This document shows, piece by piece, positions 1,375 through 40,100 of a stretch of DNA of 64,000 nucleotides. This DNA is from a virus. Both the position numbers and the translations under genes were made by a program. The stretch is from positions 38,949-102,948 of IMG/VR virus record IMGVR_UViG_3300017739_000004; one strand, written 5' to 3'. Each line of letters opens with the position of its first letter. The first letter of the stretch is position 1. The notes under the pieces were generated by a model that saw only the letters and a list, made by a program, of their open reading frames with translations, did not search any database and was not told the DNA's origin.

Positions 1375-1382
1375 TATAAATA
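1375..1382 (+). promoter_or_regulatory. T4-type late promoter TATAAATA
   Basis: An exact TATAAATA box in the 37-base gap between the iscA-like gene and the ATG at 1407. It is the first such box ahead of the membrane protein/curli gene run, so that cluster is probably expressed late. Confidence 0.65.
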
Positions 1383-1406: not shown

Positions 1407-1703
1407 ATGGAAGACATATTTACTTTAATATCAGACGTGGGATTGCCAATCGCAGGAGCTTTGGTCATGGGTGTCTTTATATTCATAATTATAAAACAAA
1501 TAATGATGGGTATAGTAGATAATATCAGAACTCTTACTATGTTTTGCGAATCTTTAGAGAATCGTGCTAGAACTATGAGTAATGAAATGATTAAAATAGA
1601 TATGTTAGTTAGCAGTGCATTAGAGTTAAGACCAGATATCGATAGAGTAGCAAGAGCTGAAAATTTTATTGAAGATGGTAAACTTGATGTGAGGAGAGAT
1701 TAA
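1407..1703 (+). CDS. Small membrane protein with coiled-coil tail (first of pair)
   Basis: A 98-residue protein with one hydrophobic segment at about residues 12-33 (LPIAGALVMGVFIFIIIKQI), then a heptad-like, charged C-terminal half. The N-terminal pattern 'LISDVGLPI' resembles 'LITDYGFPT' in the next gene and the overall plan is the same, so the two are probably a diverged tandem pair. The stop overlaps the next ATG. The function is not recognised. Possible roles are a holin or anti-holin-like protein or a membrane partner of the curli export genes that follow; the sequence does not decide between them. Confidence 0.75.
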   Translation: MEDIFTLISDVGLPIAGALVMGVFIFIIIKQIMMGIVDNIRTLTMFCESLENRARTMSNEMIKIDMLVSSALELRPDIDRVARAENFIEDGKLDVRRD

Positions 1704-1999
1704 TGGATGTACAAATCACAGAAGCTGATTTTACTATTGTTTCTCTAATCACTGACTATGGCTTTCCAACTGTAATGGTAGTTGGGTTAGGATATTTTGT
1801 CTATTTCGTATGGCAATTTATTAATAATAATATCGAGCCAGAAATAGAAAAGATGCATTTCCAATTAATAAAAGTGATTGACCAAATGAGAATGTTGGAC
1901 CAAGATTTAATTAGGCTTCAACAAAAAGTAGATGTAGTTTTAGAATATAAAGAGAATGAAAAAAAGAAACGAGGAGAATTGGGAAAAGATGAAAAGTAA
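1703..1999 (+). CDS. Small membrane protein with coiled-coil tail (second of pair)
   Basis: A 98-residue protein with a hydrophobic segment at about residues 22-42 (VMVVGLGYFVYFVWQFI), then a helical, charged tail with heptad spacing (MRMLDQDLIRLQQKVDVVL) that should form a coiled coil. Length and plan match the preceding gene. The start overlaps the stop of the preceding gene and its 3' end overlaps the csgF-like gene, so all three are translated in one transcript. The function is unknown; association with the curli pore or with lysis is only an inference from position. Confidence 0.75.
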   Translation: MDVQITEADFTIVSLITDYGFPTVMVVGLGYFVYFVWQFINNNIEPEIEKMHFQLIKVIDQMRMLDQDLIRLQQKVDVVLEYKENEKKKRGELGKDEK

Positions 2000-2495
2000 T
2001 TTAGAAGTTGCTGGATTAATTGCTATATTTGGTTTATCTTTGTATGGCGTATCACCTGCAATGTCTGCAGATGAAATTGTACATAAGTTCAAAAATCCAT
2101 CATTTAGTGGAGTTGGTACAGGCGCACATTATCTTACAATAGAAAACCAGGAACATTCCAGAAAAAAAGCGATCGAAGATGCACTTGAAGCTGCAAAGAA
2201 TGCTGCTGAAAGAGAGGCAGAGAATTCAACTCTTGCAAAATTTATTAGAAACCTAGAGAGTAGAATATATGCTCAATTTGCTAAACAATTAGTTGAGTCA
2301 ATGTTCTCTAATGATAACCCTGCGGGGTTTGGTTCTTTTATTTTAGAAGGTAATATAATCACATGGGAAGTTGTCACAGATGAATCAGGTGCAGAGTTTA
2401 TTAGATTGACAGTTGTAAGTGAAGATGGAACAGAAACAGTAATTGAAATACCTGTAGGTACAGGAAACTTTGGACAAGACCCAGATAATGGTTAG
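1989..2495 (+). CDS. csgF: CsgF-like curli assembly protein
   Basis: 168 residues from the ATG at 1989. An in-frame ATG at 1956 exists, but the later start gives a clean signal peptide (IAIFGLSLYGVSPAMSA) and has AGGAG at 1972. The mature N-terminus reads IVHKFKNPSFSG, matching the FRNPxFGG segment by which CsgF plugs into the CsgG pore. The C-terminal half (QFAKQLVESMF, then ITWEVV and two beta strands ending ETVIEIPV) follows the CsgF fold. In Escherichia coli, CsgF sits on the outside of CsgG and helps anchor the curli nucleator. It is longer than E. coli CsgF because of an Ala/Glu-rich helical insert near residues 50-75. It overlaps csgG by 8 bases, in keeping with the partnership. Confidence 0.85.
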   Translation: MKSNLEVAGLIAIFGLSLYGVSPAMSADEIVHKFKNPSFSGVGTGAHYLTIENQEHSRKKAIEDALEAAKNAAEREAENSTLAKFIRNLESRIYAQFAKQLVESMFSNDNPAGFGSFILEGNIITWEVVTDESGAEFIRLTVVSEDGTETVIEIPVGTGNFGQDPDNG

Positions 2496-3420
2496 AGTAC
2501 TTTTAGCATCATTAATAATTTTAAGTGGTTGTGCTTCGATACCGAAGTGGTCGGACGATCCACAAGATTGTAAGATACCAAAGATTGTTGATGTAGTCAC
2601 GGCTGTACAAAAAGTTTTTGAAAGAAAATACATTTGTGTAGATATGCCAGAGGTTGTTAACTTACCTGCTTATATACAATTATTAGAATTACCACCACCA
2701 ACAATTGAAAAACCAGTTGTTGCAGTATATAGTTTTTTAGATAAAACGGGTCAAAGAAAAGCAAGAGAAGGTATAGCAGATTTCTCAACAGCTACGACTC
2801 AAGGTGGAGTAGAATTATTAGTAGACGCTCTAAAGACAGCCGGAGGTGGCACATGGTTTAGAGTTGTTGAAAGACAAGGCGTAGATCATCTAGTTAGAGA
2901 AAGACAGATTATCAGAAGCGCTAGACAAGAGTTTGCAGGTGATAATGGCCCGCAACCTTTAAACCCTTTATTATTCGCAGGAATGATTATAGAGGGTGGA
3001 ATAATTGGTTATGATACTAACATAATGACGGGAGGTCGGGGCGCACGAACTCTCGGTATTGGTTATGCGAAACAATATCGTAAAGATGTTGTGACTGTTT
3101 CGGTTAGAGCTGTTTCAGTTCTGACTGGTGAAGTATTATTAAACGTCCAAGCTCGTAAGACTATTTTATCTTATGGGTCAGGTGGTGATATCTTTCGTTT
3201 TATAGAGGAAGGTACTCAACTAGTAGAATATGAGGACGGTGTGGGAAATAATGAGTCGGTGACATATGCAACACGAGCAGCAATTGAAGCTGCGGTGTTG
3301 GAATTAATTTACCAAGGCCACGATCGTGGTTATTGGAATATAAGTGATGGGCATCGCCATCCACATCTTAATGATGGGGTAAACGATAAACATCAATTAG
3401 AGGAGTACGAAAATGAATAA
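2488..3420 (+). CDS. csgG: CsgG-like curli secretion pore lipoprotein
   Basis: 310 residues from the ATG at 2488; a TTG at 2470 in the same frame is less likely because the ATG gives a compact lipoprotein signal with lipobox LSGC (Cys15). CsgG forms the nonameric outer-membrane channel that exports curli subunits. Family landmarks are clear: VVAVYSFLDKTGQ, DFSTATTQG, WFRVVERQGVDHLVRERQII, LLFAGMIIEGGIIGYD, GGRGARTLGIG, ARKTILSYGSGGDIFRFIE and HDRGYWNI. The pore-loop phenylalanine (DFST) is kept, but the asparagine before it is Asp here, and the loop tyrosine of E. coli CsgG has no obvious match. An N-terminal insert of about 50 residues follows the lipobox, and a short His/Asn/Glu-rich tail is added. 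CsgE, the usual gate, is not seen. Confidence 0.95.
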   Translation: MVRVLLASLIILSGCASIPKWSDDPQDCKIPKIVDVVTAVQKVFERKYICVDMPEVVNLPAYIQLLELPPPTIEKPVVAVYSFLDKTGQRKAREGIADFSTATTQGGVELLVDALKTAGGGTWFRVVERQGVDHLVRERQIIRSARQEFAGDNGPQPLNPLLFAGMIIEGGIIGYDTNIMTGGRGARTLGIGYAKQYRKDVVTVSVRAVSVLTGEVLLNVQARKTILSYGSGGDIFRFIEEGTQLVEYEDGVGNNESVTYATRAAIEAAVLELIYQGHDRGYWNISDGHRHPHLNDGVNDKHQLEEYENE

Positions 3421-4150
3421 ACTTTTAAGTATAGCATTGCTATTGTCGACTACTTTTGTTTTCGCACAAGCCACTGATGATAACGAAATTAAGATCACAC
3501 AATCTGGTGATACCTTAAAATTATATGTAGACCAAATCGGTTTTGGAAACAAAATCGGCGGTGATGACGCTTCAGGCGGTTCACTATCTGCTATGACTAT
3601 TACAGGTAGTTCACTAGAGTTTGATTTAGATTTTACTGGTAATCAAAACGTTTTATTTGGACCAGTCGAAGCTGATAGTTCTTACTATAAGCTCGATTTT
3701 ACTGGTGATTCAAACAAAATAGATTGGAATATTGGTTATATCGGAAGTGCTGATGATTCAAACATTAACTTTGATGTGACAGGTGATTCTAACGAATTTG
3801 ACCTAGATCAAGGTTATGTTGCTAGTGCAGAAAGATTAGATGCTGATTTAATTTTAATTGGTAGTTCAAATATATTTGACATAGACTGGGAAAGTGATGA
3901 TAACGTTTGGGACTTTGATATTACAGGAGATTCAAACAATATTAACACATTACAAAATGACGGCGAACACAATCTTGAGTTCACTTTAGTAGGTGATTCA
4001 GCTGACGTCGACATTAATCAAATATCTGGTACATGTGCAAGTGGAGCAGGAACAAGTTGTGTTTCACCAAATGCAAATATTGTATTAGATGTGACTTCAG
4101 ACAATGCAATCATTCAACTTAATCAACAAGATTCGTCTAACGATTCTTAA
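3413..4150 (+). CDS. Curlin-like secreted repeat protein, Asp-rich (CsgA/CsgB type)
   Basis: 245 residues with a signal peptide (LLSIALLLSTTFVFAQA). The mature protein opens with DNEIKITQSGDTLKLYVDQ then IGFGNKI, the Gln/Gly/Asn pattern of curlin repeats. At least five repeats then carry the core TGDSN or a close form: FTGDSNKIDW, VTGDSNEFDLDQ, IGSSNIFDID, ITGDSNNINTLQ and VGDSADVDINQ. Unlike CsgA it is rich in Asp. Two cysteines lie near the C-terminus (GTCASGAGTSC), as in the second curlin of this locus. It overlaps the end of csgG by 8 bases. It is presumably the substrate of the CsgG/CsgF pore; whether it is the main subunit or the nucleator cannot be told. Confidence 0.82.
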   Translation: MNKLLSIALLLSTTFVFAQATDDNEIKITQSGDTLKLYVDQIGFGNKIGGDDASGGSLSAMTITGSSLEFDLDFTGNQNVLFGPVEADSSYYKLDFTGDSNKIDWNIGYIGSADDSNINFDVTGDSNEFDLDQGYVASAERLDADLILIGSSNIFDIDWESDDNVWDFDITGDSNNINTLQNDGEHNLEFTLVGDSADVDINQISGTCASGAGTSCVSPNANIVLDVTSDNAIIQLNQQDSSNDS

Positions 4151-5213
4151 TTTATTACTCATTAGTGGGTTTGCTTTTTCTAGCGAACCCATTGGTGGTA
4201 TTAAAGAATCTATTGGCTATGGTGGAATTACAAGAGATGATGAAACTTATAACCATGATGTCGGATTAGAAATTCAACTTAACGATCAAGCTGAAACAGC
4301 AAATGGTCGTATGCTTATAGAGTTCTTAGACGATGCAGAACTCCAACTCAAAGAACATTCAAGGGTTTTAATAGATACGGTTTATTACGATCCAAACCCA
4401 AACCTATCAAAAATGACTATGCGTATGGTCAGTGGAACAGCAAGATTTGCATCAGGTTCTAAGGGTTTAATTAATAAAGCAAACATAGAAATATCAACAC
4501 CAACCGCTACAATTGCTGTAAGGGGCACGGACTTCACCACAACAATAGATGAAATTGGACGAAGCCTTGTTATCTTATTACCTGACGATAAGGGAGAACC
4601 TTCAGGTGTTATTGAAGTCACCAGTTTAGGTGGAACAGTTGTATTAGATGAAGCTTATGCAGCCACAATGGTGTCATCTTATGATTTACCACCAACAACA
4701 GAAACCGTAATTCAAGGTATAACACCTGCACTGATTGATAATATGTTTATTGTGAATCCACCAGAGGAGGTGAAAGAGGCAGTAGAAGAACAATTAGCCG
4801 ATGAACAAAACGAAGATCAAGGAATATTAGATATAGATTTATTAGACTTTACTGAATTAGAAGAAGATGAACTAGAAGAAGATGACTTAGGTGAGTTTAA
4901 TGAATTAGATATTGATGAATTAGATGTAGAGTTTTTAATAGATGTTTTAGACATTGTAGATTCTGGTGATCTATTTGATACATTAGGTGAGTTTGATATT
5001 CAAGGCGCAACAAGAGGATTTAATGATGAATCACAATATAATGTCTTTTTAAGAAATGGTGATTTAGTATTTTATAGAAATGTAAATGGTGTAATAGAAT
5101 TACAATTCGAAGCTGGAGGTAGCTTTACCTTAGACACAGATACTCCAACATGGTCAGGTATAATTACTGGTAATGATGGAGAAGATATAATAGTAAGGAT
5201 TAGACAGTTATAA
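4104..5213 (+). CDS. Secreted FecR-domain protein with acidic region
   Basis: 369 residues. A signal peptide (IRLTILNLLLISGFAFS) precedes a FecR domain at roughly residues 55-200, with the typical run GRMLIEFLDDAELQL, MRMVSGTARFASG and the signature STPTATIAVRGTDFT. Residues of about 225-295 are extremely acidic (Asp, Glu and Leu repeats), and the last 60 residues look like a small beta domain. Here the domain is exported and is not attached to a membrane anti-sigma segment. In bacteria, secreted FecR proteins are often encoded beside CHASE2 cyclases, as here. The start lies 47 bases inside the preceding curlin gene. A ligand-sensing or matrix-binding role is inferred. Confidence 0.85.
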   Translation: MQSFNLINKIRLTILNLLLISGFAFSSEPIGGIKESIGYGGITRDDETYNHDVGLEIQLNDQAETANGRMLIEFLDDAELQLKEHSRVLIDTVYYDPNPNLSKMTMRMVSGTARFASGSKGLINKANIEISTPTATIAVRGTDFTTTIDEIGRSLVILLPDDKGEPSGVIEVTSLGGTVVLDEAYAATMVSSYDLPPTTETVIQGITPALIDNMFIVNPPEEVKEAVEEQLADEQNEDQGILDIDLLDFTELEEDELEEDDLGEFNELDIDELDVEFLIDVLDIVDSGDLFDTLGEFDIQGATRGFNDESQYNVFLRNGDLVFYRNVNGVIELQFEAGGSFTLDTDTPTWSGIITGNDGEDIIVRIRQL

Positions 5214-5216
5214 ATA
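5209..5216 (+). promoter_or_regulatory. TATAAATA box just upstream of second curlin
   Basis: An exact TATAAATA that overlaps the stop of the FecR gene and ends 5 bases before the ATG at 5222. If used as a T4-type late promoter, transcription would start at or next to the start codon, giving a leaderless message. It may be chance in AT-rich sequence, but the same arrangement recurs at 25118 and, on the - strand, at 19823. Confidence 0.4.
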
Positions 5217-5221
5217 AAACT

Positions 5222-5899
5222 ATGAATAAGAACTTCCATTACAATTTCGTACCACTATTAACAACTATGTTTATGTTTCTTGCATTTGATTTAGTTGCTG
5301 GTCCTACAGACGATAATCATATTCACGTCGAACAAGTAGCTGATGGTGATAATATAGAATTAAATATATCTCAAATAGGTTTTGCAAATAGCATAGAATT
5401 TTCATTTGCGCATTCAGGTAATGTATTTAATCTTCAACAAAATGGTAATGGTAATAGCATATCATGGGTGTCATATTGGGGCTCAGGTAAATCATGGGGT
5501 GGAGATGTTGATGGTTCTAATAACACAGAAAATATAATTCAGTATGATGGTGCAACTTATGGTAGACATATATGGGGTGATGAAAATATTGTAGATGTTT
5601 ATCAACATGGAAATCATACACACAATTTAGACATTCACGTTGATGATGTCGAACATGACTCATGGCAAGATGGTGCTGGGTCGCATTATAGTCATGTATA
5701 TTATTATGGTAATTCAGATGGTTCAATAACTAATCTTAAACAAGAAGGTACAGGAAATCATAATGCACAAGTAGTTTTATATGGAAATTATTTAACAACA
5801 CTTAATGTTTTACAACAAGGGTCAAATAATCAGTCATATAATTTAACACAAAATTGTCAAACAGTAGGTGGATGCACAGTTAACGTCACACAAGATTAA
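5222..5899 (+). CDS. Curlin-like secreted repeat protein, His/Asn/Gln-rich (CsgA/CsgB type)
   Basis: 225 residues with a hydrophobic signal sequence (FVPLLTTMFMFLAFDLVAG). The mature start, PTDDNHIHVEQ then LNISQIGFANSIE, parallels the first curlin. Curlin-style repeats follow with Gln-X-Gly-X-X-Asn spacing: LQQNGNGNSISW, YQHGNHTHN, LKQEGTGNHN, LQQGSNNQSYNLTQ. It is rich in His, Asn, Gln and Tyr, and carries 13 histidines. Two cysteines lie near the end (QNCQTVGGCTV), matching the other curlin. It is a second probable CsgG substrate. Its stop overlaps the cyclase ATG (TAATG), so expression is coupled to the cyclase gene. Confidence 0.85.
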   Translation: MNKNFHYNFVPLLTTMFMFLAFDLVAGPTDDNHIHVEQVADGDNIELNISQIGFANSIEFSFAHSGNVFNLQQNGNGNSISWVSYWGSGKSWGGDVDGSNNTENIIQYDGATYGRHIWGDENIVDVYQHGNHTHNLDIHVDDVEHDSWQDGAGSHYSHVYYYGNSDGSITNLKQEGTGNHNAQVVLYGNYLTTLNVLQQGSNNQSYNLTQNCQTVGGCTVNVTQD

Positions 5900-7737
5900 T
5901 GAAATATATTACTTCGGTATGGTCTACATTATTACTCGTATCAGCTCTGATATTAATAAGAGTTTATGATCCAGCAATAGTCGAGCAAGTCAGGCTCAAT
6001 ACATTCGATCAATACATCAAAACACTTCCAAAAGAAAAATCAAATGATATAGTACTTGTTAATATCGGTGAGAAATCACTTGGTAAGATTGGTCAATTTC
6101 CATGGCCTAGACAAGAATACGCACAAATGATTTCTGACCTAAGAAATATTAATGCTGGCTATATTGGATTTACTATAATGTTTCCAGAACCAGATAGATT
6201 TGGTGGTGACGATATATTTGCTCAATACATACAAGACAATGGGATTATCTTATCACAAGACGCAGATAACAATGGAAGGGCCGACAGTGCACCGTATGTA
6301 GGGCATGCACTATTTGGTACATCAGACCCTTTAGATTTTATATACAAATATAATGGTATAGTTGCTAATATTAAGAATTTAGAACAAGAGGCATGGGGTA
6401 TAGGATTAATAAATGCATCACCTGAAGTAGATAATATCACTAGAAGAATACCACTTATGACAAATGTAAAAGATGAAATCTATCCATCTTTTGCTTTAGA
6501 ATTAACTAGATTAAATATGGATCAGTTATCTTATACTATAAAATCAAATGAAGCAGGTATAGAAAGTGTAGTAGTTAGACCTTTTGAAATACCTACAGAT
6601 AGTGATGGTTCAATATGGTTAAAATGGAATACAGAATTTGAAGAAATAGAATACGAAAGGCTAATGCCAGGGTATGATAATTTAGAAGGTAAGACTGTTA
6701 TAGTCGGTGTATCAGCCAGTGGATTAGGTGCTCAGATTCCTACTCCTGGTGGTTTGATGAATCCAAACCAGCTTCAAGCCGCAGCTCTTCAAACAATTCT
6801 GTCAGACAATCCGATTTCTCGTCCTCTATGGGCTGATTCAATAGAAATTCTTGTAAGTGGAATTCTGGCTCTGTTGTTAATTCTGTTGATATATCGCGCA
6901 CCGATTTGGGCTTCAGGACTCGGCTTCGTTGTTCTTTGTGTTGGACAAGCCGGATTGACTTTTTATATCTGGAATAAATTTTATATACTCCTCGATCTTA
7001 GTTATTCACTAATATTATATATAATATCTTTTGCTTCAACGAGTTTTAATAACTTCTATAAACAATTTGCTCTTAGACAACAGATAAAGAAACAATTTGA
7101 AACATATTTGGATCCAAGACAAGTGGCTCTATTACAAAAAGACCCAAGCAGATTAAAGCTTGGTGGTGAAAGAAAAGAAATGACTTTCTTGTTTATGGAT
7201 ATAGTAGGATTTACTCCTATATCAGAACATTATAAAAATAATAATGACCCAGAAGGGTTAGTAGAAATTATAAATAATTATTTAAACCGTATGACCAATA
7301 TTATCTTAGACAATGGTGGTACTATTGACAAATATATGGGTGATTGTATAATGGCCTTTTGGAATGCTCCATTAGACTGTGAAGATCATGCATACCTAGC
7401 TACTAAAACAGCTATGGAAATTGAGAGAGCAGCAGATGAACTTATTAAAGAACTTGAAGATAAAGGCTTACCACGTATTGATGTTGGTATTGGTATTAAT
7501 TCCGGGACTTGCATCGTCGGAAACATGGGATCCGAAACTAGATTTGACTATTCCGTCATTGGAGATGCCGTCAACTTGGCAGCTAGACTCGAAGGCCAAA
7601 CACGCAATTACGATGGGGTTCGAGTGTTGTTGGGCGAACAAACATATAAAAGCTGTTCATCTGGAGAATTCACTGAAGTCGATAGAATCAAAGTTAAAGG
7701 TAAATCCGAACAGGTTAGAATATATACCCCAATTTGA
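5899..7737 (+). CDS. CHASE2-domain class III adenylate cyclase
   Basis: 612 residues. An N-terminal membrane helix (residues 5-22) precedes an extracytoplasmic CHASE2 sensor (about 30-300), which shows IVLVNIGEKSLGKIGQFPWPR. Three membrane helices follow at about 313-395, then a class III cyclase domain from about 425. The catalytic parts are complete: metal Asp in FLFMDIVGFT, the adenine-contact Lys in TIDKYMGDCIMAFW with the second metal Asp, the Asp in YSVIGDAVNLAARLEG, and the Asn/Arg pair in NLAARLE. The Lys and Asp pair predicts ATP and not GTP as substrate, giving cAMP. It is the last gene of the curli-like run and lies beside a FecR protein. Codon choice becomes GC-richer near 6740-6960 and 7500-7690, suggesting mosaic origin or overlap constraint. 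Confidence 0.93.
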   Translation: MKYITSVWSTLLLVSALILIRVYDPAIVEQVRLNTFDQYIKTLPKEKSNDIVLVNIGEKSLGKIGQFPWPRQEYAQMISDLRNINAGYIGFTIMFPEPDRFGGDDIFAQYIQDNGIILSQDADNNGRADSAPYVGHALFGTSDPLDFIYKYNGIVANIKNLEQEAWGIGLINASPEVDNITRRIPLMTNVKDEIYPSFALELTRLNMDQLSYTIKSNEAGIESVVVRPFEIPTDSDGSIWLKWNTEFEEIEYERLMPGYDNLEGKTVIVGVSASGLGAQIPTPGGLMNPNQLQAAALQTILSDNPISRPLWADSIEILVSGILALLLILLIYRAPIWASGLGFVVLCVGQAGLTFYIWNKFYILLDLSYSLILYIISFASTSFNNFYKQFALRQQIKKQFETYLDPRQVALLQKDPSRLKLGGERKEMTFLFMDIVGFTPISEHYKNNNDPEGLVEIINNYLNRMTNIILDNGGTIDKYMGDCIMAFWNAPLDCEDHAYLATKTAMEIERAADELIKELEDKGLPRIDVGIGINSGTCIVGNMGSETRFDYSVIGDAVNLAARLEGQTRNYDGVRVLLGEQTYKSCSSGEFTEVDRIKVKGKSEQVRIYTPI

Positions 7738-8068
7738 TTTCATAGAACCAGCACATTGGACATCATACGCAGTATCTTTTGCATTACAATATGCCGATAT
7801 TCATTATACTAATAAAGCTTTACAATATCAATGTGTACGTGAGCTTAATCCTTTAGTTGGTAAAAGACCATCATGGAATCATTTAGTAGCTCACAAGGTA
7901 ATTACATTGTGGCCTGTGTATCACCCAGACTTTAATAAGTATCCAATCACTGATAAAGACTTAAATCAAGTTAATGTGTTTATGGCCATTGTTGTATTAC
8001 ATAATAAAAGAGTGCTTGAAAAAGTGCAAAGACACCCAGATATCTGTCCTAAGATTTCTACTATTTAA
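7436..8068 (+). CDS. Unknown protein overlapping cyclase gene; possible secreted protein
   Basis: The open frame runs from TTG 7421 (ATG at 7436, another at 7613) to 8068 and has no ATG, GTG or TTG after the cyclase stop, so it must begin inside the cyclase gene. The ATG at 7436 has GAGAG about 8 bases before it and gives 210 residues with a signal-like start (HVLMLVLVLIPGLASS). The ATG at 7613 would give 151 residues. The part beyond the cyclase (EPAHWTSYAVSFALQYADIHYTNKAL, stated as EPAHWTSYAV then FALQYADIHYTN) looks like real protein, with a YADIHYT...ELNPLVG pattern like small membrane proteins of the DUF5658 kind. The function is unknown. The 3' half is fairly sure and the start is not. 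Confidence 0.6.
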   Translation: MNLLKNLKIKAYHVLMLVLVLIPGLASSETWDPKLDLTIPSLEMPSTWQLDSKAKHAITMGFECCWANKHIKAVHLENSLKSIESKLKVNPNRLEYIPQFDFIEPAHWTSYAVSFALQYADIHYTNKALQYQCVRELNPLVGKRPSWNHLVAHKVITLWPVYHPDFNKYPITDKDLNQVNVFMAIVVLHNKRVLEKVQRHPDICPKISTI

Positions 8069-8829: not shown

Positions 8830-9081
8830 ATGGTGTTGAGATCATTACAAAAAAAGGTTAACAAAGAAGTGACAGAAATTTTGGATAAGCAATTGGGATG
8901 TCATGGTAAACGAGATTCTTTATGGTCGTTAGCTATCGACCTAGATAAAATTCAGGTAAGGCCTGACTTAGAAGGACACGCTGTCGAACTTGGGGTAACA
9001 CCCAAGCCATTGAAACACCGCAAAAACTTATGTGACCAGCCAGTCACAAATTGTCACACAATTGTCACACAAAACAGTTGA
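8830..9081 (+). CDS. Hypothetical early protein, 83 aa
   Basis: An 83-residue basic protein (MVLRSLQKKVNKEVTEILDK at the start), not recognised. It has no clear ribosome site, only a run GACGTGAAAT before the ATG. The last 15 or so codons coincide with the TGTGAC/GTCACA operator cluster and the stop lies inside the -35 box of the promoter at 9078, so the gene end and the control region are interleaved. This could mean the frame is open by chance at its 3' end; it is kept because it fills an otherwise empty gap and the codon use looks ordinary. Confidence 0.45.
   Translation: MVLRSLQKKVNKEVTEILDKQLGCHGKRDSLWSLAIDLDKIQVRPDLEGHAVELGVTPKPLKHRKNLCDQPVTNCHTIVTQNS
9031..9071 (-). repeat. Inverted copies of the TGTGTGACA box upstream of second early promoter
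   Basis: Two perfect TGTCACACA (reverse complement of TGTGTGACA) at 9052-9060 and 9063-9071, 11 bases apart, and a partial copy (GTCACA at 9043). TGTGA at 9031 and TCACA at 9044 form a dyad with an 8-base gap. The cluster ends 6 bases before the -35 box at 9078. With the array at 8081 it suggests one regulator controlling both early promoters. Confidence 0.75.
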
Positions 9082-9106
9082 CATTTACAGAAAAGCGTGA
9101 TACTAT
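9078..9106 (+). promoter_or_regulatory. Sigma70-like early promoter
   Basis: A perfect TTGACA (9078-9083), a 17-base spacer and TACTAT (9101-9106). The small gene at 9140 follows with an AAGGAG ribosome site. The inverted operator boxes lie directly upstream. Confidence 0.85.
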
Positions 9107-9139
9107 AGACATATAAATTAATAATGATAAGGAGTAAAT

Positions 9140-9286
9140 ATGAGTGATTATTATAATAACGACGATATTGTTAGCAGCGTCGATCAATCAAAAGCTGACA
9201 TCATAAGTAGACTAGACGAAATTGAATCAAGAATTGAAAAGATTTTTGAAATCGTTGAAAATATGGAGGCTAATTTAAATGGATAG
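9140..9286 (+). CDS. Small acidic coiled-coil protein, 48 aa
   Basis: A 48-residue protein that starts at an ATG 7 bases after an AAGGAG ribosome site and directly follows the promoter at 9078. The first 15 residues are Asp/Asn/Tyr-rich; the rest is an amphipathic helix with heptad spacing (IISRLDEIESRIEKIFEIVE), so it should oligomerise as a coiled coil. The stop overlaps the next ATG. The function is unknown; small early coiled-coil proteins of phages often bind and redirect host proteins, but nothing specific is seen here. Confidence 0.75.
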   Translation: MSDYYNNDDIVSSVDQSKADIISRLDEIESRIEKIFEIVENMEANLNG

Positions 9287-9725
9287 AATAAAATTTGAAA
9301 ATGTCTCCGAGGACATCTCTTACGCAATAGGCTCTTCTCTTAGAGGCTATATTAATGAAGTAACTACAAACCAATTGATTGCAATGTTTGGTGAGCCAAG
9401 CAGAGTACCTTCTGGTGATGGTAAAGTCCAACTTGAATGGATTATTAAAACTAAAGTTATTGAAGAAGATGGCAACGAAATAGATAGTTGCTTTACACTT
9501 TACGATTGGAAAGGTTCAGCACCTTCCGATGATAATGCCGAATGGAAAATCAATGTTGGTGGTAGATCACAACAAGATTATTGGAATGTATTTGATGCAT
9601 TTGATATTGCTAACGAAACAGATTTCTTATATGCTTACGATGGTGATGGCAAACTATGTCAATCCAAAGAAGGTTTTAGTCTACATCTATTACAGATGTG
9701 TAAAGAGGAGGCAGCAAATGGATAG
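9279..9725 (+). CDS. Hypothetical early protein, 148 aa
   Basis: A 148-residue soluble acidic protein, unrecognised by motif. It shows a pattern NQLIAMFGEPSRV near residue 31, and later YDWKGSAPSDD and a GGRSQQDYWNVFDAFD segment, which look conserved in style (turn plus aromatic cluster). It overlaps the 48-residue gene by 8 bases and the next gene by 8 bases, so it is part of a tightly coupled early operon driven from 9078. The function is unknown. Confidence 0.8.
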   Translation: MDRIKFENVSEDISYAIGSSLRGYINEVTTNQLIAMFGEPSRVPSGDGKVQLEWIIKTKVIEEDGNEIDSCFTLYDWKGSAPSDDNAEWKINVGGRSQQDYWNVFDAFDIANETDFLYAYDGDGKLCQSKEGFSLHLLQMCKEEAANG

Positions 9726-10571: not shown

Positions 10572-10774
10572 GATTATTAGTAGAAAATTATGGTAATGTA
10601 AGAGTATTTAAAGATCGCTCTTTAGTAGGATTACCTCGTTATATTATAGAATCTATGGATCCCGATTTTGGTTTTAGACATACTAAAGTTTTATCTGGTG
10701 TATGGTATAAAAAAGAAAAAGTGTTAGAGATAGCATTGGATATGGCTCAAGAATTAGATGGCAGAGAAAAGTAA
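10568..10774 (+). CDS. Hypothetical protein, 68 aa
   Basis: A 68-residue alpha/beta protein (LLVENYGNVRVFKDRSLVGL, then SGVWYKKEKVLEIALDMAQE). The N-terminal half looks like two or three strands and the end a helix. The ATG overlaps the stop of the tiny membrane gene and the 3' end overlaps the next gene by 17 bases. It is not recognised. Codon use matches its neighbours, and the operon-like overlaps support it being a real gene. Confidence 0.7.
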   Translation: MRLLVENYGNVRVFKDRSLVGLPRYIIESMDPDFGFRHTKVLSGVWYKKEKVLEIALDMAQELDGREK

Positions 10775-10907
10775 AGATATAGTTGGTAGTTTACAAAAAC
10801 AAGCTTGGAGAAGAGCAACACAATTGCCTAAGCCAAATTCAGGTACACCACATGATTGGGAAGATTACGAAAAAATGAAAGAGGATAAAAATAATGAGCG
10901 AACATAA
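10758..10907 (+). CDS. Hypothetical small protein, 49 aa
   Basis: A 49-residue frame nested between overlapping neighbours (17 bases shared with the gene before, 14 with the gene after). The sequence is basic in its first half (SLQKQAWRRATQLPKPNSG) and acidic in the second (HDWEDYEKMKEDKNNERT). It is not recognised. The overlaps and AGAATTAG-type weak ribosome signal leave some doubt, but the frame is needed to fill the gap between the neighbouring genes. Confidence 0.6.
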   Translation: MAEKSKDIVGSLQKQAWRRATQLPKPNSGTPHDWEDYEKMKEDKNNERT

Positions 10908-11187
10908 AGACGCTGTAATAAAACAAGCTAAACTATTATTAGCTGAACAATGGGCAAATGGAATTACGAATGTCCATGTGTTTGATACTACTAAAGTTCA
11001 GATGTGGTACGAGAATATTAATACAGAAAAAGACGGTCGTGTCACAGATATAACTTACAACGATGGACGTATTGAAAGATCACAAAATGGAAAAGTGATT
11101 AGAACTTTTGGTGAGAAACAATTATGTGGCAATGACTTAATTAATCAATGGGAGAGATTTGGACCAACAGTTGACATCTCAATTTAA
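10894..11187 (+). CDS. Hypothetical protein, 97 aa
   Basis: A 97-residue protein with a helical start (AVIKQAKLLLAEQWANGI) followed by a strand-rich part with turn-repeat look (DITYNDGRIERSQNGKVIRT). GAGG lies upstream of the ATG. It is not recognised. The promoter at 11171 begins inside its last codons. It belongs to the same compact early operon as the preceding genes. Confidence 0.78.
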   Translation: MSEHKDAVIKQAKLLLAEQWANGITNVHVFDTTKVQMWYENINTEKDGRVTDITYNDGRIERSQNGKVIRTFGEKQLCGNDLINQWERFGPTVDISI

Positions 11188-11199
11188 CTGTGTTATAAT
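11171..11199 (+). promoter_or_regulatory. Sigma70-like promoter
   Basis: A perfect TTGACA (11171-11176), a 17-base spacer ending TGTGT and a perfect TATAAT (11194-11199). Transcription should start near 11206, which argues that the ATG at 11208 is not the normal start of the next gene unless the message is leaderless. Confidence 0.85.
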
Positions 11200-11276
11200 A
11201 TAATATTATGGGAATGACTAATTTTTATCAAGGTTCACTGAGGTATTCACCTTGTGGCCGAAAAAGAAAAAATCAC

Positions 11277-11564
11277 ATGGCTAATCCAGTCAAGAAAAAA
11301 CCAATTCATTTTAAAAAGATGAAAGTTGAAAAGTCAACATTAGATATAATGCGTAAAGAACAAGCAAAGCAATATAAATCATTAATGGAAGAAGCTATCA
11401 AAGATGGTACATGGTTAGATCAGGCAGGTAATACAGCTAAAAAAGAGAATCCAGTTTATACTGGCACATTAGTAAAAGGTATTGCCACAATGCATAAATC
11501 AAATGCTGTTCCAGTTATTAATCAGCAAGAAGCAGAAGATATTGCTAAAATGAGGAGAGGTTAA
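11277..11564 (+). CDS. Hypothetical basic protein, 95 aa
   Basis: The frame is open from an ATG at 11208, but that codon would lie at the very 5' end of the message from the promoter at 11171. The ATG at 11277 is preferred and gives 95 residues opening MANPVKKKPIHFKKMKVEKS. The leader in between holds a short inverted repeat (CAAGGT with ACCTTG at 11229-11254). The rest is helical with a WLDQAGNTAKKENPVYTG stretch. It is basic and soluble, and unrecognised. The stop overlaps the next start. Confidence 0.7.
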   Translation: MANPVKKKPIHFKKMKVEKSTLDIMRKEQAKQYKSLMEEAIKDGTWLDQAGNTAKKENPVYTGTLVKGIATMHKSNAVPVINQQEAEDIAKMRRG

Positions 11565-11689
11565 TGAAAGAGTTTTGGAAACAGTTTTTTGGTTTTTGGA
11601 ACAATATTTTCAATTGGTCGTTTAGAGTTTTAATATTATTAATTATTTGTTATTTTATATTACATTTAATTAATGGTGGTAATATATGA
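11564..11689 (+). CDS. Tiny membrane protein, 41 aa
   Basis: A 41-residue frame whose ATG overlaps the preceding stop (TTAATG) and has GAGGAGAGG just upstream. The N-terminal part is aromatic (FWKQFFGFWNNIFNW), and one membrane helix follows (RVLILLIICYFILHLI). It is another tiny inner-membrane protein of the early region with no recognised family. The strong ribosome site supports it. Confidence 0.7.
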   Translation: MKEFWKQFFGFWNNIFNWSFRVLILLIICYFILHLINGGNI

Positions 11690-37122: not shown

Positions 37123-40100
37123 ATGGCAATAGATAAAGAAACAAGAATATTAAAAAGTAATACCATTGAGCAATTTAGACAAAAGGCCAATGAGGTATCT
37201 TTACACTTAGGCGATACAGACCAATTAAATAGTTTAATTGCAGATAATGTATTTGACTATTCAAATGTTTCTGTAGGTACAGATTTAGTACAAGGTAGTG
37301 ATGATAATTCACTCATACAAAAATTTAATATAAAACCAGATGAAAGTTTAGATAATACTGGTGGTTATATTATTCTCAAAGGAAGTCCAACAATACCATC
37401 AAGTTTTGTTGCAGATGCTGTTGTCACACAATCAGGTGGATTCTCAGCAACTATTGTTAGTGTTTCAACATCAAAAATTCTTGTTAAAAATAGTTCAGGT
37501 ACATTTAATGCTGCACAAAATCTAGTAATAGGTTCAGACAATATAGCCAATTCAGCAGTCGTTAGATTAATTACAGAATCATATAATGTTGGTAATATTA
37601 GAGTATTTAAAAATGGTACTGAATTACCACAAGACTTATCAGCTACAGGTTTCCACGTTCCAGCTTTATCTGGTGTCATTACTTTACAAAATAATCCAGC
37701 ACTAGCAGGTTATGAAGAAGGTACAACAATTTCACAATCAGGTGGATTTAGTGCGACAGTTCTAAAGGCCACTTCAACAGCATTATTCTTAAAAGTACAA
37801 TCAGGTACATATTCAGTTAGTCAAAATATTACTGGTGGTGATGCCGCTATTATAGCAGCTAATCATACAGGTATATCAAGTAAAGACATTGCATTCGGAA
37901 ATGCCATCGAACTCAATACAATTACTGCAAATGCAACTGATGATATCCAAATTAAAGCCACAAGTACAGTACAAGCTTTAAACGAATTACAAGATGACAT
38001 CGGTAATATTGCTAACTTAGGTACAACCTCTGCAGGTGATTTAGTAGTTAGTATTAATGAATTAGAAACAGGGCTGAGAGGTACTTTAGGAAATTATACA
38101 GTATCTACAACTCAAGCTGGCCATGGTGTGGTCGGTGCAGTAAATGAATTACATACTGATATCGGAACAGCTAGTTTTACAAATGATCTTCCAAGTCATG
38201 CGACTTATAATACTGGTTCGCAAAACTTAACTGGTCAAATAGAAAATATTGCAACCTTTATTGGTGACACAGCAATTAATAATATTCATGGAAGTACACA
38301 TACTATTACACAAACTATTTCTAAACTACATACAGAAATAGGAAATATGACATTGACTGGATTAAGTGCAACAACTTTATCCGGTGCGGCAAGAGAACTC
38401 AGAACAGAATTAGGTGATGTCACTGCATTAAATACATCAGTCACAAGTAATGTGGTTGGTGCAATCAATGAGATTGAAGGTGTATTCGATGCATCAGCAA
38501 GAACAATTACTACATCCGGTGACTTGACAATTGATTCATCTGGTGATATAATATTGGATGCAGATGGTGGTGATATATTACTTAAAGATGCTGGGAATAG
38601 TTTTGGTAAATTTACTAATAGTTCTGGTAGTTTGCATATAGTATCTCAAGGTTCAGACAACGATATTAACTTCTTTGGTAATGATGGTGGCTCAAGTGTG
38701 ACTGCTCTCACCCTTGATATGTCAGATGCTGGTACAGCAATCTTTAATCACGATATTAAATTACCTGATAGTGGTCAAGCAATTTTTGGTGCAGGCTCTG
38801 ATTTAAAAATTTATCACGATGGTTCTAATAGTTATATAAATGATGCTGGTACTGGATATTTAGTAATTCAATCAAACGGACCGGGTATTCGTTTAAATAG
38901 TTCTGCAGCAGAAATAATGATTGATGCAACTCCTGATGGTGCTGTAACACTTTATCATAATAATATAGCAAAACTAGCCACTAAAGCAGATGGTGTAGAT
39001 ATTACAGGTGAATTACAATCAGATTCATTAGACGTAGATGGTGTTGGAGATATATCTGGTAATCTTACAGTTCACGGTGTCTTAGATATAGGAACACTCA
39101 GTACACAATTTAGTGTATCAAATAGAAATGATGTAAAACTTGCTTTAAATGAATTGCATTCAGAATTAGGTAATGCTGTAATAACAGGAACAAATACCGC
39201 AGCTGCAGGTTTAACTAATCTTACATCAGCCATAAATGCAATCGATGCAGAAATTGGTGTCACAAATACAATATTAAATAGTGTTGGTACTCATGGTGGT
39301 ACAACTGTTGCAGGTGTATTAGGAAATCTAAGTACAGCAATAGTAAATAATGATACAGATATATCTACCCTTCAAGGAAGAGATATAATTGCAGGAACTG
39401 GTTTAACTGGTGGTGGAACATTAGCTGAAGATAGAACATTAAATGTCATTGGTGGTGATGGTATCACTGCTAATGCAAATGACGTTGCAGTAGATGCTAC
39501 AGTTCTAAGAACAACAAGTACAAATGTTGTAAGAACAGATGCAAATAGAAATATTGTCAGTGGAACCACTGTCACATTTGATTCTGGTTCATCATTAATA
39601 ATTAATGGTACATTGACATTAGCTGGTTCTGCATCAGGTGTATCTACATTTGGTGTAAACTTTGTTGAGGTTGATGGTTCTGGAAATCAGCAAGGTCTAC
39701 AGGTACAAAATAGTTTTTCAGGATATAGTGTAGACCCTAGAGTTCAATGGAATCATACAAGAGTCAGTGCAGCCCCAACAAGAGCATGGCAATTAGTTGG
39801 TCTTGCAGCTGATGGAAGTACAGCAGATACTACAGACATAGTCACATATACAAACTTTGGTGATCTTGCAGATGGTACTCATTTAGAAAAGAGTGGTACA
39901 TCTCTTAGAATAAAAGATAGTGGTGTCACAACAGATAAAATTGCAAATTTAAATGTCACAACAGGTAAAGTTGCTGCTAGTGCGATTACATTTGCTAAAA
40001 TGCAAAACATATCACAGAATAGATTATTAGGAAGAACTGCTGCAGGTTCTGGTAATATAACAGAAGTTCAAATACAAACAGGTATGATTGCAGCAGATGC

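Follow-up and report, generated by a model that had tools for sequence, protein, structure and literature searches.

What would a T4-like phage gain from carrying the genes of a bacterial amyloid secretion system? The question is raised by the virus record IMGVR_UViG_3300017739_000004, a fragment of 102,948 bases, of which positions 38,949 to 102,948 (64,000 nucleotides, hereafter the window) were analysed. Nine overlapping or abutting genes on the plus strand fill positions 1407-8068 of the window. An original prediction made from the sequence alone had read CsgF, CsgG, two curlins, a FecR-domain protein and a cyclase in this cluster, and all of these genes are found where it placed them, with matches to Pfam and, for the curlin profiles, to solved curlins (Table 1). 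The cassette is a genuine, intact example of a module type described in ocean viruses from 2020 to 2022, and we contend that it exports amyloid as a phage-borne type VIII (curli-type) secretion module, with a probability of about 0.7. The new elements are mainly an open reading frame (ORF7) overprinted on the cyclase gene and a bacterial operon that parallels the cassette.

The T4-like nature of the phage, also part of the original prediction, is supported by genes in the record for a single-stranded DNA-binding protein, a gp59-like loader, a tail tube, a baseplate and a terminase, the last being closest to that of phage C48C1 (67%, Kyanoviridae) and then to those of cyanomyophages (about 45%). 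CsgF and CsgG with neighbours of unknown kind were reported earlier in pelagimyophages, for which sibling capture was proposed (PMC7029224, 2020), and an entire module including FecR, adenylate cyclase and putative histidine kinases was described in podo- and myo-pelagiphages of two families (PMC9599517, 2022). The second paper also reports that pelagiphage curli genes are expressed in metatranscriptomes and that the module was found at 65 of 65 GOV2.0 stations. The cultured phages HTVC008M (KC465899) and Melnitz (MZ577097) carry the module in the same gene order, and the set is kept across 124 distinct viral loci. The suggested scan of other phages thus recovers the same arrangement, and the expectation that no complete set, FecR and cyclase included, had yet been described is contradicted.

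Residues 60-287 of the CsgG product match E. coli CsgG structures (4.3e-46) and the lipobox cysteine is Cys15, which, together with the Pfam match, upholds the placement of the 2488 product in CsgG. For the curlins, family profiles were built from 36-37 sequences, comprising the window's own and those of viral relatives. The curlin 2 profile matches the solved curlin 8C50 and the CsgA fibril 8ENQ, and the curlin 1 profile matches 8ENQ at a borderline value. The AlphaFold models of both are strand-rich (predicted local distance difference test, pLDDT, 82.8 for curlin 1 and 76.7 for curlin 2), and their top weak Foldseek matches are mainly beta-helices. That the 3413 and 5222 products form beta-solenoids can be held with moderate confidence, as the profile matches and the models favour it, whereas Foldseek searches of both models against PDB returned nothing below 0.001.

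This structural null result is one of several observations that weigh against amyloid export. As single sequences, the curlins match Curlin_rpt at 0.0032 and 0.85, both below the Pfam cut-off. Among the cassette proteins, Pfam gave no match to CsgE, CsgD or CsgC, of which the absence of CsgE counts here; the CsgE gate and the CsgD regulator were treated as non-defining for a type VIII secretion system, and the two are said to be absent outside some classes (PMC9599517). In ten relatives (L005, L008, L010, L142, L157, L160, L162, L169, L176 and L186) the CsgG N-terminus has a hydrophobic start and no lipobox cysteine, and the pore of this group may be without a lipid anchor. Melnitz-infected cells did not clump (PMC9004378), and SAR11 as the host of the window's phage is read off the cassette shared with HTVC008M rather than demonstrated. 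The cyclase output is also without a known target, given that the cyclic AMP (cAMP) receptor domain PF00027 occurs in none of nine phage records (those of the window, HTVC008M and Melnitz and six additional viral contigs, several of them fragments) and is rare in Pelagibacter, where 10 of 121 genomes have it, each time in a frame of 870 aa.

An argument for export comes from retention among viral relatives. The 124 loci were gathered through similarity to the window CsgG or to a viral CsgG alignment and are therefore biased to near relatives, and each gene was counted only in loci with enough sequence on its side. No such locus lacks CsgF (105 of 105), a curlin adjoining CsgG (107 of 107) or FecR (79 of 79); a second curlin is found in 39 of 44, and 35 of 37 have the cyclase. 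The ratio of nonsynonymous to synonymous substitution rates (dN/dS) is 0.03-0.28 in all eight genes tested, indicating purifying selection, curlins included. Because the curlins are invariably kept, the export reading is strengthened and a role for the pore alone is disfavoured. Such a role was proposed for Melnitz (PMC9004378), in which CsgG and CsgF would make up a pore in the outer membrane that times lysis or takes up solutes and the curlins would be incidental; the same paper says that Melnitz is without csgA and csgB, yet its GenBank record annotates two curlin-repeat proteins. It has been argued that the pore may stay open when the CsgE gate is missing (PMC9599517), which would suit this alternative, as would the late-type promoter box. 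The pair of small membrane proteins that comes before CsgF in nearly all loci points the same way, since lysis genes typically encode short membrane proteins. Against the constant presence of curlin 1 and FecR and the selection on the curlins, however, we regard a pore with incidental curlins as unlikely.

The late timing claimed for the cassette is supported by its relatives. Copies of TATAAATA across the window number 21 against 14 expected, which is little enrichment, but in 66 of 116 relatives the 120 nt that precede the first cassette gene contain an exact copy, whereas an internal control stretch gave none. Late expression would also fit an alternative in which the amyloid lands on released virions or cell debris and not on living cells, and beta-solenoid-like curlins are compatible with it. 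Virions assemble in the cytoplasm, however, while signal peptides and a CsgG pore would carry the curlins away from it and out of the cell, and the present data hold no link between curlins and virion proteins, so that this destination appears improbable.

If the cassette does export amyloid, the module would be transcribed late in infection and both curlins would reach the periplasm via their signal peptides, leaving through the CsgG lipoprotein pore fitted with CsgF and building up on the infected cell as beta-solenoid amyloid. The FecR protein, itself exported, and the CHASE2 cyclase would constitute a pair that senses in the periplasm, signals by cAMP and was acquired along with the genes for export, and ORF7 may be a further envelope protein of the cassette, partly encoded inside the cyclase gene. 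Export, fibre formation, sensing and cAMP synthesis are steps that we infer, whereas the computations themselves show which genes are present and in what order, their retention under purifying selection, the late-type box, the intact cyclase residues and the dual coding of ORF7. The view that the set is in principle enough for amyloid export is supported in its gene assignments and by the retention of the curlins, and export itself is plausible. As for what the phage gains, the most favoured candidates are host-cell aggregation and masking against superinfection, both having been suggested already (PMC7029224; PMC9599517).

FecR and cyclase genes have been reported as lying outside bacterial curli operons (PMC9599517). 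The operon of Hyphomonas sp. TMED17 is an exception, as CsgF, CsgG, curlin, FecR and CHASE2-cyclase follow each other in phage order among metabolic genes on a 705-kb contig (L056, 8366-14389). Its CsgG falls inside the phage clade beside the phage contig L025 (99/96), and so does its cyclase (node SH-aLRT, the Shimodaira-Hasegawa-like approximate likelihood ratio test, 94). This genome is a metagenome-assembled genome (MAG). The existence of a bacterial operon of the same order could be taken to mean that the phage cassette is decayed bacterial passenger DNA, or that its similarity to curli genes arose by chance. This is contradicted by the intact frames, by the dN/dS values and by retention across divergent phages and two cultured isolates, and we give it almost no weight. 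Phage-type cassettes, recognized by the small membrane pair or a phage-like CsgG, were also seen in bacterial MAG bins (L051, L053, L055, L057 and L058), and these are probably misbinned phage contigs. Of 121 Pelagibacter genomes, three have a CsgG gene, in one case on the phage-type contig L058.

The FecR protein and the CHASE2-cyclase look like a periplasmic sensor pair and not an iron regulator. The classical FecI/FecR/FecA reading, with an inner-membrane regulator, a partner sigma factor and a receptor, is not borne out, as the protein matches the FecR domain alone and no FecI- or FecA-like gene is present in the cassette; its N-terminus carries, by inspection, a signal-peptide-like leader. 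Outside curli loci, the two partners keep company: among 20 CHASE2-cyclase loci from the order to which the Hyphomonas genome belongs, none of them with curli genes, 15 have a FecR-domain gene within 5 kb, nine of these being confirmed by Pfam, with varying strand and spacing. By comparison, a FecR neighbour was found in 0 of 72 bacterial CsgG loci (1.2 Mb searched). The pair therefore seems to be an independent unit that became attached to the curli genes. A biofilm-regulating operon in which FecR-domain proteins are encoded beside CHASE2 kinases has been reported, and the operon mutant lost biofilm (PMC5192318).

The window cyclase has all six class III residues, namely the metal aspartates D434 and D482, the adenine-specifying K478 and D550, and the transition-state residues N559 and R563. 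Across 12 viral cyclases D434, K478, D482 and R563 are invariant and D550 and N559 nearly so. The window enzyme would thus be expected to synthesize cAMP, and constitutive cAMP production has been described for a cyclase lacking the CHASE2 domain (PMC5498481).

ORF7 starts inside the cyclase gene, shares its first 302 nt with it and has a signal-peptide-like start. In the 31 phages with ORF7, the +1 frame contains no stops over 97 codons, whereas synonymous recoding predicts 8.9, and the cyclase's synonymous variation drops from 0.47 to 0.33 (p 8e-8, a value that kinship makes optimistic). The 23 phages without ORF7 have on average 6.7 stops in this frame and undiminished synonymous variation. 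Since the first stop count was partly circular, the group having been picked by its open frame, it was repeated with groups set by the domain downstream of the cyclase stop; 28 of 29 positives then have 0 or 1 stop and 21 of 21 negatives at least three, L190 being the sole exception. ORF7 is a real overlapping gene, and the dual-coding constraint is confined to the phages that bear it. The possibility that its signal-peptide look is a by-product of a cyclase motif was examined and ruled out, as cyclases without ORF7 have 3-14 stops and lose no synonymous variation. Searches for relatives elsewhere gave near copies or nothing, the downstream part weakly resembles DUF2670/DUF5658, and L024 and L042 hold separate copies of ORF7, each beginning with a signal-peptide-like stretch of its own. 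It can be speculated, as a possibility that we rate rather low, that FecR, the CHASE2 cyclase and ORF7 form a phage feedback sensor of envelope amyloid export, with ORF7 born by overprinting in the +1 frame of the catalytic core as a new exported protein and cAMP acting, in cells that for the most part have no known receptor for it, via an unknown one.

Table 1. Promoter box and genes of the cassette, in window coordinates
Feature	Position	Strand	Supporting observation
T4-type late promoter box TATAAATA	1375..1382	+	exact match; 25 nt before ATG 1407
Small membrane protein a, 98 aa	1407..1703	+	phrog_18771 2.6e-25; one hydrophobic segment, then helical tail
Small membrane protein b, paralogue of a	1703..1999	+	phrog_18771 1.6e-24; alignment
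CsgF-family protein, CsgG pore partner	1989..2495	+	PF10614 9.7e-12, over cut-off
CsgG outer-membrane lipoprotein pore	2488..3420	+	PF03783 3.5e-49; lipobox LSGC
Curlin 1, signal peptide and curlin-like repeats	3413..4150	+	profile match 8ENQ 0.0024; strand-rich model
Exported FecR-domain protein	4104..5213	+	PF04773 1.2e-9; phrog_37870 1.8e-56
Curlin 2, signal peptide and curlin repeats	5222..5899	+	profile matches 8C50 1.6e-8, 8ENQ 6.4e-6
Membrane CHASE2-class III adenylate cyclase	5899..7737	+	PF05226 9.8e-44, PF00211 (Guanylate_cyc) 6.7e-21
ORF7, signal-peptide-like protein	7436..8068	+	first ~300 nt overlap cyclase catalytic core, +1 frame

All 105 viral loci with sufficient sequence encode at least one small membrane protein, and 99 of them encode two. 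These proteins have been labelled histidine kinases, a label that finds no support here, since neither HisKA nor HATPase_c was matched in Pfam or NCBIfam among 15 members of about 98 aa each. A holin-like reading was weighed as well, and its hints are weak (YvrJ at 0.15, with PDB matches to generic coiled coils).

Other genes of the window lie outside the cassette. Directly upstream of it (514-1369) are NifU-N and IscA-type genes for iron-sulfur (Fe-S) assembly, and 12 of 37 relatives with good coverage likewise have Fe-S assembly genes next to or within the cassette. Four giant reading frames of 1820-2267 aa occupy positions 31452-57278; Peptidase_S74 chaperone domains form the C-terminal end of two and DUF4815 is present in one, and all four are probably of the tail-fibre type. 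Among the sequences retrieved, a 1.5-kb unverified wastewater contig labelled Salmonella phage (L050, OR851715.1) encodes a CsgG 43% identical to that of the window, and its host label is doubtful.

A working module would mean that phages provide some of the most abundant bacteria in the sea with an amyloid coat that those bacteria do not encode, and such a coat, if real, could alter aggregation, sinking and competition among phages. The bacterial operon offers a lead to the cellular relatives of the module, and the FecR-CHASE2 pairing replaces an iron-regulator reading with a testable sensor model. The ORF7 overlap is not shown in annotated relatives, and knock-outs of the cyclase must allow for it.

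Among known systems, the pelagiphage type VIII module of HTVC008M has the same order of two small proteins, CsgF, CsgG, curlin, FecR, second curlin and cyclase, although the window represents a separate lineage (CsgG 52% and cyclase 44% identical). The histidine kinases of the pelagiphage papers correspond to the short membrane proteins that here lack a kinase match, and the sections consulted of PMC9599517 and PMC7029224 describe neither ORF7 nor the bacterial version of the operon. Melnitz, for which CsgF and CsgG were reported and a lysis role suggested (PMC9004378), shares the order CsgF-CsgG-curlin-FecR-curlin-cyclase, with a CsgG 38% identical to the window's and without the overlapping ORF7; its curlins (L049) are annotated in GenBank at 8848-9567 and 10626-11642, and its cyclase has serines at the D550 and N559 positions and so may be inactive. 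The Hyphomonas sp. TMED17 operon differs in having one longer curlin (504 aa), no small membrane pair and no ORF7. The BiofilmReg operon of Burkholderia contaminans, for which curli genes are not described, likewise encodes an exported FecR-domain protein beside a CHASE2 membrane sensor, but its output is a histidine kinase whereas that of the cassette is a cyclase (PMC5192318). With E. coli curli (csgBAC-csgDEFG; 4UV3, 6L7A, 8ENQ) the cassette has in common the CsgG fold family, the CsgF family and the curlin repeats, to which it adds the FecR protein, the CHASE2 cyclase, two membrane proteins and ORF7.

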